From contig JAJZYV010000103.1 in assembly GCA_021797955.1 (NCBI GenBank), positions 1 to 6,657 of the forward strand: 6,657 nt of DNA. Reading direction: 5' to 3'. This stretch comes from Thermoplasmata archaeon. GTDB taxonomy: Archaea; Thermoplasmatota; Thermoplasmata; Thermoplasmatales; Thermoplasmataceae. Shown here one piece after another: positions 204 through 6,657 of this stretch. The number at the start of each line of letters is the position of its first letter. Position 1 is the first letter of the stretch. A program made the translations under genes and the position numbers. A model generated the notes under the pieces. It saw only the letters and a program-made list of their open reading frames with translations, had not been told where the DNA came from and searched no databases.

Positions 204-214
204 AAAAATTTAAG
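204..214 (+). promoter_or_regulatory. TATA-like promoter element of the MFS operon
   Basis: The A/T-rich stretch AAAAATTTAAG ends in TTTAAG (209-214), whose first T is exactly 30 nt upstream of the ATG at 239. This puts the element centre about 27-28 nt before the start codon, where archaeal TATA boxes sit relative to the transcription start, so the mRNA would be leaderless. The SDR gene on the other strand has the same TTTAAG at the same distance. A second A/T-rich box, TATATAAAT (179-187), lies too far upstream for a leaderless transcript and would give a roughly 25-30 nt leader. Confidence 0.6.
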
Positions 215-230
215 TAATTCATATGACATA

Positions 231-244
231 TGACTTTTATGTCA
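231..244 (+). promoter_or_regulatory. Putative TetR operator over the MFS start codon
   Basis: TGACTTTTATGTCA is an inverted repeat TGAC-N6-GTCA covering -8 to +6 relative to the ATG at 239. A 14-mer with the same arms occupies exactly the same register at the SDR gene, TGACATACATGTCA. A further copy of the arm, within ATATGACATA (221-230), lies just upstream. A repressor bound here would cover the predicted transcription start. Assignment to the TetR protein encoded at 4851-5435 is inference from proximity. Confidence 0.5.
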
Positions 245-1630
245 GGTAATGTTAATGACAGTGGGGAAAGACTTGCTAATATTCAGGCAAGGCTTGACCG
301 TTTGCCCATAAGACCCTATCCAAGGTTCTGGCTTGTAATTCTGGGAATTGGCTATTTTTTTGCCTTCTACGATATACTTGCTTTGAGTTATGCGTTCGTA
401 TCTCCTATGGTCTCACAGTTGAAGCTGACTGAGATACTACTGAGTGATTCTGCTTCTGCAACTCTTTTTGGATATATAGTTGGTACTTACGTTGTGTCAA
501 CTATAAGTGATTATGTCGGAAGAAGGCTTGGGCTTGTAACCAATGCCTTACTTGTTGCCGTAGGAACATTAATATCAGCTCTGTCATTCAATGCCCCAGA
601 ATTAATAGCTGGGAGATTCATAGCTGGAATGGGAATCGGTGCTGAGATATCCATAATCAACACATATATGTCAGAAATAACCCCATCTCATATGAGAGGA
701 AAAATGACTCAATGGGCGTATTTTTCAGGAGCCCTTGGGTTCGCTCTCGCTCCATTTATTGCACTGGTTATCATACCAATAAATGCCGACGGTTGGAGGT
801 ACCTTTTTGCTATACCAGCAGTTATTGCGGTGGCAATAGTCTTCCTGAGATTTAGTATGCCGGAGTCTCCTAGATGGCTTGTACTTAAAGGTAAACCAGA
901 TGAGGCCGAGAAAATAATCAATGATATGGAGTCTTTTGTTAAGGAGAAGATTAGCACACTTCCTGAAATTCCCGCTTATGAAAGAGAGATTCCTGGTGAA
1001 CACTTTCCTACGAGAGAAATATTTACAAAAAAGTATGGTCCTAGATTAGCCATAGTGGCATCATTCTGGTTTCTAGACTATTTCCTGGCTTACGGTATAC
1101 TGGGATTTGCACCATTGATATTTGTCACATCAGGATTTCTGTTCACGACTGCAGTATGGTATATTGGTCTTGGATCCACCGGTTATATAGTAGGTGCAGT
1201 CTCCATGACTTTTATCGCTGATAAGTGGGAAAGAAAATATCTGATTATCTCTGCACTCATACCAGCTATTATAGCAGTATTTCTATTTGCACTGGCTCTA
1301 TATGATCATTCTGCAGTTTTATTAACCATAGGTGCCTTTTTAGGGTCTTTCGCAACAGCCTTCGCAGTGCCAGCTTATACATACACTGCAGAAATATATC
1401 CAACCAGGGCAAGGGCAACTGGGTTTGCTCTCTCAGATGGTATTGGTCACCTGGGGGGAGCCATAGTACCTTTTGCATTTACAGCGATGGTTGTTCTCAC
1501 CACTGCTAGCATAGTAAAAACCGGTGCAAACTTCTTTATCTTACTTGGAATACTTGAAATAATAGCCGCTTTTGTATTGCTAGCCGGTCCAAGAGCGTCA
1601 AGAAAACCACTCGAAACGGTGTCCCCATGA
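239..1630 (+). CDS. MFS transporter, sugar/metabolite:H+ symporter type
   Basis: This encodes a 12-helix inner-membrane secondary transporter of the major facilitator superfamily, 463 aa from the preferred start. It shows the sugar-porter/metabolite-symporter signatures. The loop 2-3 motif DYVGRR is at residues 91-96, an E-x-TP-x4-RG motif is near 146-154, PESPRWL is at 208-214 just after helix 6, and a charged central cytoplasmic loop spans about 215-265. DKWERK (328-333) is the second-half copy of the loop motif, and AEIYPTRARATG lies at about 384-395. An in-frame ATG at 230 would add only MTF. I prefer 239 because the TATA-like element then has exactly the spacing seen at the SDR and tetR genes. 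The gene heads the operon, and its stop overlaps the next start as ATGA. Substrate and direction cannot be read from sequence. An organic or aromatic acid taken up for the ligase downstream, or export of a product, would both fit. Confidence 0.93.
   Translation: MSGNVNDSGERLANIQARLDRLPIRPYPRFWLVILGIGYFFAFYDILALSYAFVSPMVSQLKLTEILLSDSASATLFGYIVGTYVVSTISDYVGRRLGLVTNALLVAVGTLISALSFNAPELIAGRFIAGMGIGAEISIINTYMSEITPSHMRGKMTQWAYFSGALGFALAPFIALVIIPINADGWRYLFAIPAVIAVAIVFLRFSMPESPRWLVLKGKPDEAEKIINDMESFVKEKISTLPEIPAYEREIPGEHFPTREIFTKKYGPRLAIVASFWFLDYFLAYGILGFAPLIFVTSGFLFTTAVWYIGLGSTGYIVGAVSMTFIADKWERKYLIISALIPAIIAVFLFALALYDHSAVLLTIGAFLGSFATAFAVPAYTYTAEIYPTRARATGFALSDGIGHLGGAIVPFAFTAMVVLTTASIVKTGANFFILLGILEIIAAFVLLAGPRASRKPLETVSP
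1618..1621 (+). promoter_or_regulatory. Shine-Dalgarno site of the hydrolase gene
   Basis: GGTG lies five bases before the ATG at 1627, inside the end of the MFS gene. It matches the archaeal 16S tail complement GGTGA over four bases. It supports translation of the hydrolase from the ATGA overlap. Confidence 0.45.
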
Positions 1631-2445
1631 TTCTAAGGAATGGTAATATTCAAATATTTTATAATGTAGTCGGTAAAGGAACTCCCATAGTTTTTGTTGA
1701 AGGACTTGGTTACTCAATGTGGATGTGGAAATTCCAGAAGTCCCTTTCCATGAAGTATAAACTCATCTTTTACGATAATAGGGGAGTTGGGAAATCATCT
1801 AAGCCTGAAGAAAATTATACCTTGGATGATTTTCAGAGCGATCTATTTTCTCTTGTACAGTCATTAAAATTAGAAAATTTTTTTCTGATAGGTGTATCAA
1901 TGGGTGGGATGATAGCCGAACAGTTTGCCCTGGAACATCAAGAAATGATAGAAGGACTAGTACTCTCTTCAACTAATTTTGGAATACGATCAAAGTTGCC
2001 TTCAATGGATGTGCTTAAGATTCTTTCAGAACCTCCCAATGGAAAGGAAATGTTTGAAAGAATGAGACCTGCTTTTTCAGAAAAAACCGTATTGAATAAT
2101 AGAAAATTGATTGATCTTATTATAGAGGAAAGGAGCCTTGATTCTCCCATTGTGAAGCAGGTACAGCAGTCAATGGCGTTCATAAAATTCGACGTTTTAG
2201 ATAAACTTCAGAATATATCATGTCCAACTCTGGTAATTTCTGGACTGGATGATAAGATAGTTCCTATTGAAAACTCTGAAATAATTCATGAAAAACTCCC
2301 CAACAGTAAGTTTATAAAATTCAGAGATTCAGGACACCTGGTCAACATGGAAAGACACAATGATTACAATGCAGAAATAGATAAATTCTGCACAAGTGTA
2401 ATGAGTAAGAGTTTTAGTAAGGTCATAACTCCATTGGTGATTTAA
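1627..2445 (+). CDS. Alpha/beta-hydrolase (3-oxoadipate enol-lactonase-like), Ser nucleophile
   Basis: This encodes a 272-aa soluble alpha/beta-hydrolase fold protein, likely an esterase, lactonase or thioesterase. The nucleophile elbow GVSMGG puts the catalytic Ser at residue 91. The acid is probably Asp209 in GLDDKIVP, and the general base is His237 in DSGHLVN. The oxyanion-loop motif after strand 3 reads VEGLGYS (24-30), with Glu in place of the usual His of HGxG. DNRGVGKS (50-57) is the usual strand-4 turn. A small cap of about 120-190 links the two halves. The fold ends near residue 258, and the last 13 or so residues (from SKSF) look like an unstructured tail whose codons also contain the SD site of the next gene. 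The gene overlaps the transporter by 4 nt and ends 3 nt before the proposed CTG start of the ligase, so it is co-transcribed. Overall similarity is closest to the PcaD-like group, but the substrate is not determined. Confidence 0.88.
   Translation: MILRNGNIQIFYNVVGKGTPIVFVEGLGYSMWMWKFQKSLSMKYKLIFYDNRGVGKSSKPEENYTLDDFQSDLFSLVQSLKLENFFLIGVSMGGMIAEQFALEHQEMIEGLVLSSTNFGIRSKLPSMDVLKILSEPPNGKEMFERMRPAFSEKTVLNNRKLIDLIIEERSLDSPIVKQVQQSMAFIKFDVLDKLQNISCPTLVISGLDDKIVPIENSEIIHEKLPNSKFIKFRDSGHLVNMERHNDYNAEIDKFCTSVMSKSFSKVITPLVI
2436..2441 (+). promoter_or_regulatory. Shine-Dalgarno site that supports a CTG start for the ligase
   Basis: GGTGAT is fully complementary to ATCACC of the archaeal 16S 3' tail. 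It lies seven bases before the CTG at 2449, within the last codons of the hydrolase. No ATG, GTG or TTG exists in the ligase frame between the hydrolase stop (2443-2445) and ATG 2575. There is therefore no conventional start for this SD to serve in that frame. Confidence 0.55.
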
Positions 2446-2448
2446 ACG

Positions 2449-3855
2449 CTGGATAAGGTTTTAAGAAATTGGTATAATACTGGTAATACTGGATTTGTAA
2501 AATATGAAGAGAAGGTACTCAGGTATAGAGAAATAGATGAACAGAGTGATCATATTTTTTTAGTTCTAAGTGAAATGGGCATAAAAGAAGGTGATGTGAT
2601 TTTATCCATAATAAAGAACCCTCTTGATAGTGTTATCCTATTTTTCGCAGTTGTTAAATGTGGTGCAATTTTATTCCCTATAAATCCAGTAATAGAGAAA
2701 TCCCTTTACGATCATGTAATCAGCAATGCAAAGCCAAAACTAATTATAAGTGATTTTAACAATGAAGGAATTTCTATTGAAACTTTGAAAAACAGGAGTA
2801 TTAAAGGCAACCGTCTAAACCCTAACCAGAATTATAACCCTGAGAGAACAGTATTGACCCTTCTAACAGGAGGATCGACAGGAACTCCTAAGGGTGCTGA
2901 AATTTCCGAGAATGCAATTATGTGGAATGCATTTAACACAGTTCTCACATGGGGCATAAACCAAAGTGATAGAACACTTGTTTGTATGCCTTTATATCAT
3001 ACAGGGGGTTGGAATATCCTGTTGATACCAACTCTAATTGCCGGAGGAAGTGTAATATTTTCAGAAAATAATTTTGATCCTGACGAAATTATAAATCTCA
3101 TAGAAAAGGAAAGAATAACTATATTTATGGGTGTACCAACCATGTATGAGAAAATAGTGGCAAGTAGCGAATTTTATAAGAAAGACCTTTCCAAGGTTAG
3201 AATGATATCTGGAGGTGGAAAACTCAGAAAAGAGACCTATGAAAAGCTTTTGGAAAGAAATATTAAAGTGTTTCAGGGTTATGGATTAACTGAGGCTGGT
3301 CCTAATAATTTTTACATTTCTCCAGAGAACCAGAAAAAATTCCCGGACTCTGTTGGAACTCCATGTATATTTGTAGAAGTAAAACTTGCGGAAGATGGTG
3401 AGCTATTAATCAGAGGTAAACACCTCTTCTCCAGATACATGTTCGGAAGCGACATTGATCCCTTTGAAATAGATGGTTATTTTAAAACAGGAGATATTTT
3501 CAGAACCAATGAGCTTGGATACTATTTCTTTGTGCAAAGGAAGAAGAATGTGATTAAAACTGGAGGAGAAAATGTCTATGCAACCGAGATAGAAGATATC
3601 ATTCTAACATTACCCTATGTGGTTGAATGCTCTGTTATTGGAATGCCAGACAACTATTGGGGTGAAGCGGTAGTTGCCTTTGTGAAGACCAATGAGGTAA
3701 AATCAGAAGAACAGCTAAGAAAAGATCTAAAGATGAAATTATCAGGTTACAAAGTTCCTAAGAGGGTAATCTTTGTTAATAATTTACCAAGAAATGCTGT
3801 AGGTAAGGTGTCAAGAGAGGAACTGGTGAGATTATATGAAAAAAGTGTACATTAA
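2449..3855 (+). CDS. AMP-forming acyl-CoA ligase (ANL superfamily), probable CTG start
   Basis: Expected reaction: carboxylic acid + ATP + CoA to acyl-CoA + AMP + PPi, in the cytoplasm. From CTG 2449 it is 468 aa. The ATP-binding loop LTGGSTGTPKGAE is at about 139-151, MPLYHTGGWN at about 180-189, GYGLTE at 277-282, TGD at 347-349 and the hinge region around QRKKNVIKTGGEN at about 363-375. The catalytic Lys of the C-terminal lid is Lys453 in PRNAVGKVSRE. The first plain ATG (2575) would give 426 aa and remove residues such as LRYREIDEQSD (24-34), which match the conserved LTYRELDERAN-type beginning of the family, so that start is too late. The upstream frame is open back to the hydrolase stop. 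The hinge Gly before Arg is Gln here (QRK rather than GRK). Length is at the short end of the family, nearer the MenE type. Acyl specificity is unknown. The gene sits between the hydrolase and the condensing enzyme and overlaps the latter by 20 nt. Confidence 0.9.
   Translation: MDKVLRNWYNTGNTGFVKYEEKVLRYREIDEQSDHIFLVLSEMGIKEGDVILSIIKNPLDSVILFFAVVKCGAILFPINPVIEKSLYDHVISNAKPKLIISDFNNEGISIETLKNRSIKGNRLNPNQNYNPERTVLTLLTGGSTGTPKGAEISENAIMWNAFNTVLTWGINQSDRTLVCMPLYHTGGWNILLIPTLIAGGSVIFSENNFDPDEIINLIEKERITIFMGVPTMYEKIVASSEFYKKDLSKVRMISGGGKLRKETYEKLLERNIKVFQGYGLTEAGPNNFYISPENQKKFPDSVGTPCIFVEVKLAEDGELLIRGKHLFSRYMFGSDIDPFEIDGYFKTGDIFRTNELGYYFFVQRKKNVIKTGGENVYATEIEDIILTLPYVVECSVIGMPDNYWGEAVVAFVKTNEVKSEEQLRKDLKMKLSGYKVPKRVIFVNNLPRNAVGKVSREELVRLYEKSVH
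3825..3829 (+). promoter_or_regulatory. Shine-Dalgarno site of the KAS III-like gene
   Basis: GGTGA lies six bases before ATG 3836, inside the ligase gene. It supports this start and hence the 20-nt overlap between the two reading frames. Confidence 0.5.
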
Positions 3856-4825
3856 GAAATTTGCAATTTATGCTTCCGAAAATGTGATGACGGCTAAGTC
3901 AATCAGCGAAGAAACTGGCATACCTGAAGATGTTGTAAGGGAGAAACTGGGAATAGTTTCAAAGCCTGTTGAGGAAAAGCTTTCACTTTCAGATCTCAGC
4001 ATGAAATCAATTGAGAAAATAGTTGGGCCGGCCGACAGTTCTCTTAAAAGATTAAAATATATTGTCTCAGCAGGATCAGATTTTAAGGATAAATACATAT
4101 GGACACTTGCACCATCACTGGCATCTAAACTTGGAGTAAAAGAAGCTCTATCTTTTGATATATCCTCTCAATGTGTCGGAAGTTTAGTTGCACTTGACAT
4201 GATGAAATCAAGGATCTCATCTGAAAGCAACTTTGATGCGCTAATTAGCATCGCCACAAAGCAAAGTCATATTGTGAACTATAAAGACAGAACAGGTTCA
4301 TTCATGTATGATTTTTCAGACGGTTCTGGAGCAGTACTCATTTCTGAGGAAAAAGGTGAATATGAAATATTACAGAGTGCATTCCTTACAGACGGATCGT
4401 TCTCTGATGTAGTATACGCACCCTTTGGTGGTTCATTCATTTTAGATAAGGATATCTGGTCCTATAAACTTACTGTAAGTGAGGAAAAGGCCTGGAAAGA
4501 AAGGATGGCTGATGCAACACTGAGGAATTTTATAAGGGTGATTACAGAAGCAACAGTAAAATCAGGTTATGACATTAAGGATATTGATTACCTGGCATTC
4601 CTTCACACAAAGAGATCATTTCACCGTGAAATTATGGATGCCCTTGGAATAGATAGGAGTAAAAGTATATACCTTGAAGATTATGGACATATGCAGGGGG
4701 TAGATCCATTTATTTCACTCAAATTGGCAGAAGAAAAGAATCTTTTAAGGCCTGGAAATCTTATATGCCTGGTTTCGGCCGGGACAGGATGGACATGGGG
4801 TGCCACTGTAATATTAAAGGTTTAA
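3836..4825 (+). CDS. KAS III-like condensing enzyme / acyltransferase (thiolase fold) with altered active site
   Basis: This encodes a 329-aa thiolase-superfamily protein of the usual size and layout of 3-oxoacyl-ACP synthase III (FabH). The catalytic Cys is Cys113 in FDISSQCVGSL (107-117). The core strand DFSDGSGAVLIS (159-170) matches the DGAGAV block. His257 in AFLHTKRS takes the place of the PHQAN His, and the C-terminus has the family's W-T-W-G-A block (319-323). At the position of the third catalytic residue, where FabH has Asn in YGN, this protein has YGHMQGVDPF, with His285 replacing Asn and Asp290 five residues on. It may therefore use a Cys-His-(His/Asp) arrangement and act as an acyltransferase or non-decarboxylating condensing enzyme rather than a standard FabH. 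The overlap with the ligase suggests that it uses the ligase's acyl-CoA. No acyl carrier protein or DUF35 partner is visible. It is not the typical archaeal HMG-CoA synthase by these motifs. Confidence 0.83.
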   Translation: MKKVYIKKFAIYASENVMTAKSISEETGIPEDVVREKLGIVSKPVEEKLSLSDLSMKSIEKIVGPADSSLKRLKYIVSAGSDFKDKYIWTLAPSLASKLGVKEALSFDISSQCVGSLVALDMMKSRISSESNFDALISIATKQSHIVNYKDRTGSFMYDFSDGSGAVLISEEKGEYEILQSAFLTDGSFSDVVYAPFGGSFILDKDIWSYKLTVSEEKAWKERMADATLRNFIRVITEATVKSGYDIKDIDYLAFLHTKRSFHREIMDALGIDRSKSIYLEDYGHMQGVDPFISLKLAEEKNLLRPGNLICLVSAGTGWTWGATVILKV

Positions 4826-4829
4826 TAAA
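4821..4829 (+). promoter_or_regulatory. TATA-like element for a separate tetR promoter
   Basis: TTTAATAAA begins exactly 30 nt before ATG 4851, the same spacing as the TTTAAG elements of the MFS and SDR genes. It overlaps the stop codon of the condensing-enzyme gene. The tetR gene has no recognisable SD site, which fits a leaderless transcript of its own, although read-through from the operon is also likely. Confidence 0.45.
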
Positions 4830-4836
4830 TGGCTTA

Positions 4837-4849
4837 TCATTGTAAATGA
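4837..4849 (+). repeat. Short inverted repeat at the tetR start, possible autoregulatory site
   Basis: TCATT-GTA-AATGA is a perfect inverted repeat with 5-nt arms ending two bases before ATG 4851. It overlaps TGACAT (4847-4852), one half of the operator-like motif seen at the MFS and SDR genes. The second half (ATGTCA) is absent, so this would be at best a divergent operator. Confidence 0.25.
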
Positions 4850-4850
4850 C

Positions 4851-5435
4851 ATGAATCTCTATCCAAAGACCAAAAAAGGTCAGGAAAAATTCAACAAGAT
4901 TATTAAAAGTTCAATAGAAACAATTGCTAAACTTGGATATTCAAATGCAAGTGTTGGAGAAATAACAAGAAATGCTGGTGTGTCATATGGGCTTTTTTAC
5001 CTTTATTTCAAGGATAAGGACGATCTTCTGGAAGAACTGGTTAAGAAGTATAACCATGAAATGAGGAAATACATTCATGACAGTATAAACGGAATTGAGG
5101 GTAGAATAAATATAGAAAAGAGAGGTTTTCGTGCCTTTATTGAATGGGTTAAGAAAAACACACATCTGTTCCAGATTCTCCTGGAGGCAGAGATACACAG
5201 ACCTGAAACTTACAAATGGCATTACAGGATGCTTGGAGATCATTATGCGAAGTATCTCAAGGATGCTATGAAAAAAGGTGAAATTAAAGATAGAGATCCA
5301 AATATACTTGCATATACATTAATGGGCACAGCTGACTTTCTTGCCAGAAGGTTTATTCTCTGGGATAGTGATAGAAAATCAGATTTTCCATTTAATGAGA
5401 TTGACAGTCTAATAGAGAGCATAATGAAAAATTAG
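4851..5435 (+). CDS. TetR/AcrR-family transcriptional repressor
   Basis: This is a 194-aa one-component regulator. The N-terminal helix-turn-helix is clear: ASVGEITRNAGVSYGLFYLYF covers residues 33-53 and is followed by KDKDDLLEELV, the usual helix-4 start. Residues from about 65 on form the helical ligand-binding and dimerisation domain, without a cofactor motif I can recognise. The length is typical of the family. It follows the condensing-enzyme gene by 25 nt and has a candidate leaderless promoter. TetR proteins near acyl-CoA genes commonly sense acyl-CoA, as in the Sulfolobus FadR regulator, so an acyl-CoA or pathway intermediate is a reasonable ligand guess. Candidate operators are the TGAC-N6-GTCA repeats at 231-244 and 6221-6234. 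Both the ligand and the operator assignment are inferences. Confidence 0.9.
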   Translation: MNLYPKTKKGQEKFNKIIKSSIETIAKLGYSNASVGEITRNAGVSYGLFYLYFKDKDDLLEELVKKYNHEMRKYIHDSINGIEGRINIEKRGFRAFIEWVKKNTHLFQILLEAEIHRPETYKWHYRMLGDHYAKYLKDAMKKGEIKDRDPNILAYTLMGTADFLARRFILWDSDRKSDFPFNEIDSLIESIMKN

Positions 5436-5482: not shown

Positions 5483-6226
5483 TTAGAAAAAGAACCCTCC
5501 ATTTATGTTTATAACCTCTCCATTTATATATGAAGCTTTTTCAGAGCATAAAAAAGAAATCAGTTCAGCAACTTCCTCAGGTTTTCCAAGTCTACCGGAT
5601 GGAATCTTATTCTCATAATCTTTGAGGATTTCTGCTGGAATGGTTGAAATCATTTCCGTATTTATTATGCCTGGACTTATAGCATTTGAAGTTATGCCAT
5701 ATTTCCCAAGTTCTCTGGCCAGTGTTAGTGTCAATCCTACAAGTCCAGCTTTTGATGCAGCATAATTTGCCTGTCCCCTGTTACCGTATCGACTTATGGA
5801 CGAAATATTAATAATTCTTCCAAAATGGTTGCCGATCATACCTTCAACAACCTGTTTTGTACAGTTGAATGCACCGTACAGGTTCACCCTCATCACCTGA
5901 TCCCATTGCTCATACGTCATCTTTCTTATTGTGGCATCCCTTGTAATTCCCGCATTATTTATCAGAACGCTCACTGATTCAGTTGCTGTTTCTCTCCTGA
6001 TGTTATTAAATAATTCCACTGTTGATTTAAAATTAGCAACATCAGCCATCATTCCTAATATATCACCATTTGTTTCATTCTGAAGGTCTCTGGCGGTATC
6101 AGCTACCTCATCTTTCAAATCCGCTAGAACTACAAAAAATCCGTCTCTCAAAAGAGATCTGGCAATACTTTTTCCTATTCCTCCATTACCACCTGTAATT
6201 ACTGCAACTTGTTTATTACCTGACAT
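5483..6226 (-). CDS. Classical SDR, 3-oxoacyl-(CoA/ACP) reductase type (FabG/PhaB-like)
   Basis: This encodes a 247-aa cytoplasmic NAD(P)-dependent short-chain dehydrogenase from the preferred start. The Rossmann motif TGGNGGIG is at residues 11-18, NNAG at 90-93 and the structural Asn at 115. The catalytic Ser is about 143 in NISS, with Tyr155 and Lys159 in YAASK, and SPG at about 184-186. The C-terminal NGG block ends in GGFFF. The block GNRGQANYAASKAG is especially close to FabG/acetoacetyl-CoA reductase proteins. Asp36 at the end of strand 2 hints at NAD(H), but Lys19 after the Gly motif leaves NADP(H) open. An in-frame ATG at 6235 would add MTY. I prefer 6226 because the TATA-like element is then 30 nt upstream, as at the MFS gene. 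Though transcribed in the opposite direction, it shares a promoter and start-region cassette with the MFS operon. It therefore likely reduces the 3-oxo product of the KAS-like enzyme, or oxidises a 3-hydroxyacyl-CoA. Confidence 0.92.
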   Translation of the reverse strand: MSGNKQVAVITGGNGGIGKSIARSLLRDGFFVVLADLKDEVADTARDLQNETNGDILGMMADVANFKSTVELFNNIRRETATESVSVLINNAGITRDATIRKMTYEQWDQVMRVNLYGAFNCTKQVVEGMIGNHFGRIINISSISRYGNRGQANYAASKAGLVGLTLTLARELGKYGITSNAISPGIINTEMISTIPAEILKDYENKIPSGRLGKPEEVAELISFLCSEKASYINGEVININGGFFF

Positions 6227-6234
6227 GTATGTCA
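6221..6234 (-). promoter_or_regulatory. Putative TetR operator over the SDR start codon
   Basis: On the minus strand TGACAT-AC-ATGTCA is a perfect inverted repeat with 6-nt arms. It covers -8 to +6 relative to the start at 6226, the same register as the MFS site at 231-244. It is followed directly by GGTAAT, also as in the MFS gene. Confidence 0.55.
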
Positions 6235-6250
6235 TATATCTTAAAACGTT

Positions 6251-6260
6251 CTTAAAGTTT
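6251..6260 (-). promoter_or_regulatory. TATA-like promoter element of the SDR gene
   Basis: On the minus strand AAACTTTAAG ends in TTTAAG (6256 down to 6251), whose first T is exactly 30 nt upstream of the ATG at 6226. No SD site precedes either possible start, so a leaderless mRNA is expected. Confidence 0.6.
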
Positions 6261-6299: not shown

Positions 6300-6450
6300 A
6301 GGTTATGAATAACGTTGAGCATTGAATTTAACATCAGTTGAAAGTCTGGTAATTTCTAACTCTAATTTCATTAAAAGACACTTTCACGATAATCATGAAT
6401 TTAGAATAGTCTATTTTAGCAAAGGAGTAATCTGAAAATGGTGATTAATA

Positions 6451-6657
6451 ATTATAAGTGAGATTTCAGGTATTGATGAAGTTCTCTTTTTTGTTGATAA
6501 TCTGGCAGACGCAAAGGAATGGATCAAAGTGTTATTAGAAAAAGAGCCAGATTTTCAAAGTGAAAATTATTATTCTTTTAACCTCGGATTCTGTAAAATA
6601 GGATTACATCCCTCTGATGATAAATCAAGTTCTGGTGTAGCAGGGCAGGTTTCTTAC
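6451..6657 (+). CDS. VOC-family (glyoxalase/bleomycin-resistance-like) protein, 5' part, start uncertain
   Basis: The open frame runs to the window edge (69 codons visible), so the gene is 3'-truncated here. The start of a vicinal-oxygen-chelate domain is recognisable: IDEVLFFVDNLADAKEWIKV is the first beta strand and helix of the babbb module, and LGFCKIGLHPSDD is the strand with the GLHP motif common in this family. These proteins are metal-dependent lyases, isomerases, dioxygenases or drug-binding proteins, and the function cannot be narrowed. The frame opens after a TGA at 6442-6444 and holds no ATG, GTG or TTG before the domain, only ATA or ATT codons (6448, 6451, 6454). GGTGAT at 6440-6445 is a good SD for ATT 6451 or ATA 6454. 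Alternatively, translation starts at ATG 6438, which has AGGAG upstream, and a frameshift or sequence error separates it from the domain. The start given is a guess. Confidence 0.62.
   Translation, partial: MISEISGIDEVLFFVDNLADAKEWIKVLLEKEPDFQSENYYSFNLGFCKIGLHPSDDKSSSGVAGQVSY

Follow-up and report, generated by a model that had tools for sequence, protein, structure and literature searches.

Shared candidate operators for a FadR_Sa-type TetR repressor at the starts of an MFS operon and an SDR gene in a Thermoplasmata archaeon

The stretch analysed here (contig JAJZYV010000103.1; "the window" below means all of its 6,657 nucleotides, nt) comes from an acid-loving archaeon of the Thermoplasmata. 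Its plus strand carries, in order, genes for an MFS transporter, an alpha/beta hydrolase, an acyl-CoA ligase, a KAS III-like protein and a TetR regulator, and a FabG-like SDR gene lies on the minus strand. We suggest, with a probability of about 0.82, that the MFS and SDR starts both carry operators of the operon-encoded TetR, a FadR_Sa-type and probably acyl-CoA-responsive repressor, that these operators cover the starts of probably leaderless mRNAs, and that acyl-CoA would release them and induce both units together. The operator reading is based on sequence, positional rarity, conservation among related genomes, and the family and predicted fold of the protein. The nearest genome, G001 (one contig, 1,938,699 bases), was 98.8% identical to the window across the full 6657 bases, and a contig of the Ferroplasmaceae archaeon UBA567 metagenome-assembled genome was 98.3% identical across 2217 bases. 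An SDR relative from Cuniculiplasma sp. C_DKE showed 82% identity, and the source is accordingly likely, though not certain, to be a Cuniculiplasma. The features are:

209..214, plus strand: TTTAAG, the TATA-like box of the MFS operon; ATG 239 follows after 24 nt
224..244, plus strand: predicted operator of 21 bp at the MFS start, with half-sites at 224-227 (TGAC), 231-234 (TGAC) and 241-244 (GTCA); core dyad 231-244
239..1630, plus strand: MFS transporter gene, probably starting at ATG 239; another in-frame ATG lies at 230
1627..2445, plus strand: alpha/beta hydrolase gene
2446..3855, plus strand: AMP-forming acyl-CoA ligase reading frame; start codon not assigned
3836..4825, plus strand: KAS III-like gene; NCBIfam PRK06840 above cut-off
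4851..5435, plus strand: FadR_Sa-type TetR regulator, which we propose reads both operators
5483..6226, minus strand: FabG-like SDR gene, probably starting at ATG 6226; another in-frame ATG lies at 6235
6221..6234, minus strand: predicted operator dyad TGACATACATGTCA at the SDR start, without an outer half-site of the MFS type
6251..6256, minus strand: TTTAAG, the TATA-like box of the SDR gene; ATG 6226 follows after 24 nt

At the MFS start TTTAAG (209-214) was followed by 24 nt and then by ATGTCAGGTAAT (239-250). The SDR start, read on the minus strand, had the same box at 6256-6251, the same 24-nt gap and the same 12-mer at 6226-6215. Dyads of the form TGAC-N6-GTCA spanned -8 to +6 of the ATG at both genes (TGACTTTTATGTCA at 231-244 and TGACATACATGTCA at 6234-6221). 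The 10-mer ATATGACATA began at 221 for MFS and at 6237 on the minus strand for SDR, a 7-nt shift relative to the ATG. All three points had been made in a sequence-only reading of the stretch, and its coordinates, spacings and shift were confirmed. A second TTTAAG lay at 6245-6240, 13 nt from the SDR ATG. Both genes also had an in-frame ATG 9 nt upstream, giving the openings MTFMSGN (MFS) and MTYMSGN (SDR). These ATGs (230 and 6235) were rejected as true starts, since they would put the box at -21, where the count of TATA-like hexamers in G001 was 2; the MFS start was taken as 239 because the box position of -30 fits. The window held a third exact dyad, at 3888-3901 within the KAS gene, which was rejected as an operator since no start is nearby.

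The 12-mer had two copies in the window against a shuffle mean of 0.01, and its exact form occurred in G001 twice, solely at the MFS and SDR starts. None of the 13 one-mismatch places in G001 opens a gene (the frame extends more than 100 codons upstream or closes within 21). The dyad, with at most one mismatch, matched the window four times against 1.84 expected, and 24 of 200 shuffles gave four. TGAC-N6-GTCA was found at 22 places in G001 and its reversed control at 34. Since the dyad is not enriched genome-wide, its frequency was discarded as evidence and only its position was counted. Two of the 22 dyads spanned a gene start, those of MFS and SDR. Position was examined for 19 of the 22, the remaining three being those of the window's cluster, and the one nearest to a called open reading frame (ORF) start was centred 36 nt inside the ORF. 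The sequence-only reading had named recurrence of the 14-mer at many unrelated starts as what would speak against it; none of these 19 places lay at a start.

Starts were also sampled from 20 stretches (400 kb) of G001, giving 399 candidate ATG starts of 264 ORFs under a mechanical choice of start. None of the 399 had an exact dyad centred within 15 nt. The MFS and SDR starts were identical at 36 of 47 positions, ungapped, over -35 to +12, and a single pair among 79,223 pairs of sampled starts reached at least 36/47. By eye these were two aldo-keto-reductase-like paralogs, compared within homologous coding sequence, so that no unrelated pair was as alike over 47 nt as MFS and SDR. Identity of the first 12 nt by itself was less rare: counting the paralog pair, it was shared by three pairs, and at least 18 of 21 positions over -9 to +12 by two. 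Judging by codon counts at starts, codons 2-4 would be expected to read TCA-GGT-AAT in about 2.4e-5 of starts.

The TetR protein was the sole TetR_N match in G001 at E <= 0.001. It is uncommon among related archaea: matches were found in 2 of 101 relatives at E <= 1e-15, in 3 of the 117 genomes from the order at E <= 1e-20 and, at E <= 1e-30, in 8 of 400 genomes of the class (G001, G366, G095, G153, G242, G256, G303 and G347). Within family f27 it was found in G256 alone of 22. A search of viral contigs with the TetR alignment (15 of 17 proteins plus that of the window) gave 40 stretches, none of them a relative. The closest characterised relative is FadR_Sa of Sulfolobus acidocaldarius (Saci_1107, PDB 6EN8/6EL2), a repressor of a cluster of fatty-acid genes (Wang et al. 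2019, PMC6449355). The two share a TetR fold (predicted for the window protein), 40% identity over the whole length, a gene beside acyl-CoA-metabolism genes and a dyad operator, a predicted one in the window (PMC6449355). The neighbours here (acyl-CoA ligase, KAS III-like, alpha/beta hydrolase and FabG-like SDR) make up a fatty-acid or lipid gene setting. Five of the six helix 3 DNA-contact residues of FadR_Sa (Tyr47, Gly48, Leu49, Tyr51, Phe52, Tyr53) were identical, Phe52 being replaced by Leu51; Tyr53 is a further residue that PMC6449355 mutated. All but one of the FadR_Sa sites lie more than 130 bp from promoters (PMC6449355), whereas the window sites cover start codons. Bacterial TetR-family FadR proteins (Bacillus, Thermus) were 19-24% identical to the window TetR, and the Thermus FadR site TTRNACYNRGTNYAA (PMC5597230) differs from the window dyad in core and spacing. 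A Cuniculiplasma divulgatum homolog of FadR_Sa has been listed, without operators (PMC6449355). The same paper assigns this species to Thermoproteales; NCBI taxonomy has the genus in Thermoplasmatales. No description of a Thermoplasmata FadR operator was found in the literature searched, which excluded subscription journals and preprints.

G366 was 99% identical to the window and had the same SDR site, on a contig that ends in the KAS gene. This locus (L058, G366:C32) belongs to a bin of another genus, its TetR is 99% identical and its SDR start is the same; the contig may have been misplaced or recently transferred. In five of the six further genomes (G095, G242, G153, G303 and G256) a related 21-bp element overlapped the start of an ABC-transporter binding-protein gene. 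G347, an assembly 73% complete, gave no element match. The binding proteins of G242, G095 and G153 matched Pfam Peripla_BP_6, and those of G303 and G256 were 62% and 57% identical to that of G242. In G095 and G242 the ABC gene and tetR were on the same strand of one contig, separated by KAS and ligase genes. Among the four GC-rich sites compared (G242, G153, G303 and G256; G095 was left out), the element was AT-rich and had a pairwise identity of 90%, which fell to 29-45% in the flanking sequence on either side. The search pattern TGRTTCAYATKTCA (at most one mismatch) was built from the G095, G242, G153 and G303 sites, so matches in these genomes were expected; the G256 site was not used, and the G256 ABC gene is a homolog of the G242 gene. 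Places numbered one in G242, one in G153, two in G303, one in G256 and none in G347, with none for the reversed controls. G095 had 13 places against six in its reversed control, a count therefore near chance. One of 12 one-mismatch places there (L130 1501-1514, G095:C49:64683) overlaps the possible start of a 144-aa ORF and, given that control, is not claimed as a target.

The 21-bp elements were TGACATATGACTTTTATGTCA (MFS), AGATATATGACATACATGTCA (SDR), TGAATAGTGATTCACATGTCA (G095), TGAAAGGTGGTTCATATTTCA (G242 and G153), TGAAGGGTGATTCATATTTCA (G303) and TGATAGGTGGTTCACATTTCA (G256). Each is readable as a pair of 14-bp dyads, shifted by 7 bp against each other and built from half-sites of TGA and TCA type. 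Over the whole element 7-8 of 10 pairs were symmetric, except for SDR (5/10), and the inner dyad was strong at SDR (6/7) and MFS (5/7) and weak in the others (2-4/7). The 7-nt shift of ATATGACATA follows from its lying on the outer half-site at MFS and on the inner one at SDR. This arrangement resembles the QacR-like binding of overlapping dyads by two TetR dimers named in PMC6449355, in that the ABC starts are likewise readable as two dyads offset by 7 bp; the comparison is one of arrangement. Unlike in QacR-like binding, the second dyad is incomplete at MFS and absent at SDR. The FadR kinship, the half-site offset behind the shift and the ABC-transporter loci had not been foreseen by the sequence-only reading.

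The gap from TATA-like box to 21-mer was 9 nt at MFS and SDR, 7 in G095 and 18-20 in the other four. The start codon was ATG at index 15 of the element at MFS, SDR and G095, and GTG at index 6 in G242, G153, G303 and G256. The box-to-start gap was 24, 24, 22, 26, 25, 24 and 26 nt, and so stayed within 22-26 nt at all seven sites although the element moves by about one helical turn; the box patterns were chosen after the sites had been seen, and the G303 box is TTTTAT. From this constancy we infer that leaderless starts, with the operator on the same helix face, are favoured. TATA-like hexamers before G001 candidate starts peaked at -28 (22, against 0-9 at 54 other offsets tested). At -30, the offset of the MFS and SDR boxes, the count was 8, barely above other offsets, and -30 lies inside the leaderless range of about 22-32 nt before the start codon. 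Both mRNAs are thus probably leaderless.

The recognition helix read YGLFY in the window protein, SGTFY in G095 and LGTFY or AGTFY in the f15 and f27 proteins. It may change together with the half-site, YGLFY going with TGAC/GTCA and the other three with the TGAA/TGAT/TTCA type, a lead drawn from few groups. MT.MS starts, the window's cluster included, were found in 2 of 32 MFS and 6 of 13 SDR relatives, and one more MFS relative starts VIHVS. We lean slightly towards a wider pattern, in which an operator in the first codons would set the N-terminus of three unrelated proteins (MFS, SDR and ABC binding protein) as [M/V]-x-x-[M/I]-S. It would occupy two registers about one helical turn apart across Thermoplasmata, the start moving from the right half-site (ATG) to the middle (GTG), with the TATA-to-start distance fixed and the half-site changing with the recognition helix.

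In the proposed regulation, a TetR dimer would bind the dyad of TGAC-type half-sites downstream of the TATA box, covering the transcription start and first codons; from this position RNA polymerase would be blocked rather than the TATA-binding protein. Imported acid would be turned into acyl-CoA by the operon's ligase and acyl-CoA would free the repressor, so that the uptake and activation operon, tetR included, and the separate SDR ketoreductase gene would be switched on jointly. The MFS site, with its extra half-site 7 bp upstream, might accept a second dimer, and the SDR site appears to take one dimer. A single TetR is favoured for both units because it is the sole TetR_N match in G001, its relative represses a fatty-acid cluster and distant relatives of it co-occur with a related element in five of six further genomes. 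The sequence-only proposal that a single repressor, in the simplest case the TetR next to them, serves both units gains support in this way. Its leaderless mRNAs agree with the -28 peak and the constant gap, and the conservation it called for was found in related form, over the ABC gene starts of five genomes.

Several points weigh against this reading, beside the dyad's lack of enrichment in G001. We infer binding of the predicted sites, as well as the ligand, repression, 5′ ends, operon extent and dimer number. Only three of nine acyl-CoA pocket residues of FadR_Sa were identical (Arg72, Arg85, Phe96); K77, M101, R132 and others differ, Met101 being Val100 here, and some swaps are aromatic or basic. 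The FadR_Sa dimer-dimer contact Asn37 is Gly36. The FadR_Sa operator is a 16-bp motif, and the kinship with FadR_Sa is drawn from protein and gene setting. The ABC-locus half-sites are of the TGAA/TGAT/TTCA type and not exact TGAC/GTCA, and in G153, G303 and G256, all draft assemblies, the ABC gene and tetR lie on separate contigs. Among the 400 class genomes the MFS protein had 15 matches, all except G001 at 39-43% identity, and with no close relative there the MFS site could not be traced in DNA beyond G001. Nor does the operator reading account for GGTAAT, which both MFS and SDR have after the dyad but which the ABC elements lack.

This GGTAAT, together with the 36/47 ungapped identity, would fit common descent, in which one gene received its promoter and start, about 47 bp in all, as a copy from the other and the likeness reflects history and not a binding site. 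We consider this unlikely, as the identity is patchy (10/11 at the box, 8/15 in the middle, 6/9 and 12/12 around the start) and a related element lies over the start of the unrelated ABC gene in five other genomes. Copying and operator function are compatible with each other. It is very unlikely that another DNA-binding protein reads the dyad and tetR is a mere passenger. Recognition by TetR is argued from sequence, and the G001 survey covered TetR_N among regulator families; however, element and TetR co-occur in distant genomes, and half-site and recognition helix vary together in the few groups available. That the starts are alike because of a signal for translation or for the N-terminus (MSGN, a leaderless codon preference), with a dyad there by chance, is scarcely credible: Met-Ser starts are common (ATGTC in 20 of the 399 sampled starts, [MV]S openings in 20 of 32 MFS and 6 of 13 SDR relatives), but MT.MS opened none of the 399 and MSGN one, and in GC-rich genomes the element is AT-rich, its conservation extending into the non-coding left part.

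With the TetR operators proposed here, a published list entry, the Cuniculiplasma homolog of FadR_Sa, becomes a testable regulon with two window sites and five related sites in the class. New here is the related element over ABC binding-protein starts in five other Thermoplasmata genomes with this TetR, which provides a naturally occurring series of operators with their recognition helices. The case suggests that leaderless archaeal genes could be repressed simply by having the operator sit on the start codon. The surprise is limited, since both TetR repressors and operators at start sites are well known.

TGACAT-N0-12-ATGTCA occurred at six places in G001 against none for the reversed control. 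Besides MFS and SDR these were L036 and L037, within ORFs, and L040 and L041, outside ORFs of at least 70 aa, L040 lying between an IS110-type transposase and another ORF. These four are not claimed as targets. L041 1501-1521 (G001:C1:1515721) reads TGACATATTAACTATATGTCA, has a 9-nt spacer as in the outer MFS dyad and lies 22 nt before a cupin-domain ORF; it is a possible further target.

Contig sizes matched among some TetR, MFS and SDR relatives: P0006, P0021 and P0059 report the same size of 101,597, and P0003 and P0053 likewise 11,214. This suggests synteny without proving it. At about 6444-6657 of the window, and in L058 from 2005, a frame reading ISGIDEVLFFVDN is glyoxalase-like by eye and lacks a nearby ATG, GTG or TTG where it opens. 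Nor does the acyl-CoA ligase frame have one near the expected start (window 2443-2580). After the hydrolase stop it opens ACG CTG, as in G001, with the first in-frame ATG at 2575, and a non-canonical start, ACG or CTG, is possible. A single TGAC (4847-4850) abuts the tetR start and was rejected as an operator, as it has no partner half-site. TTTAAT lies exactly 24 nt 5′ of the tetR ATG (window 4821-4853), and tetR may have its own weak promoter.
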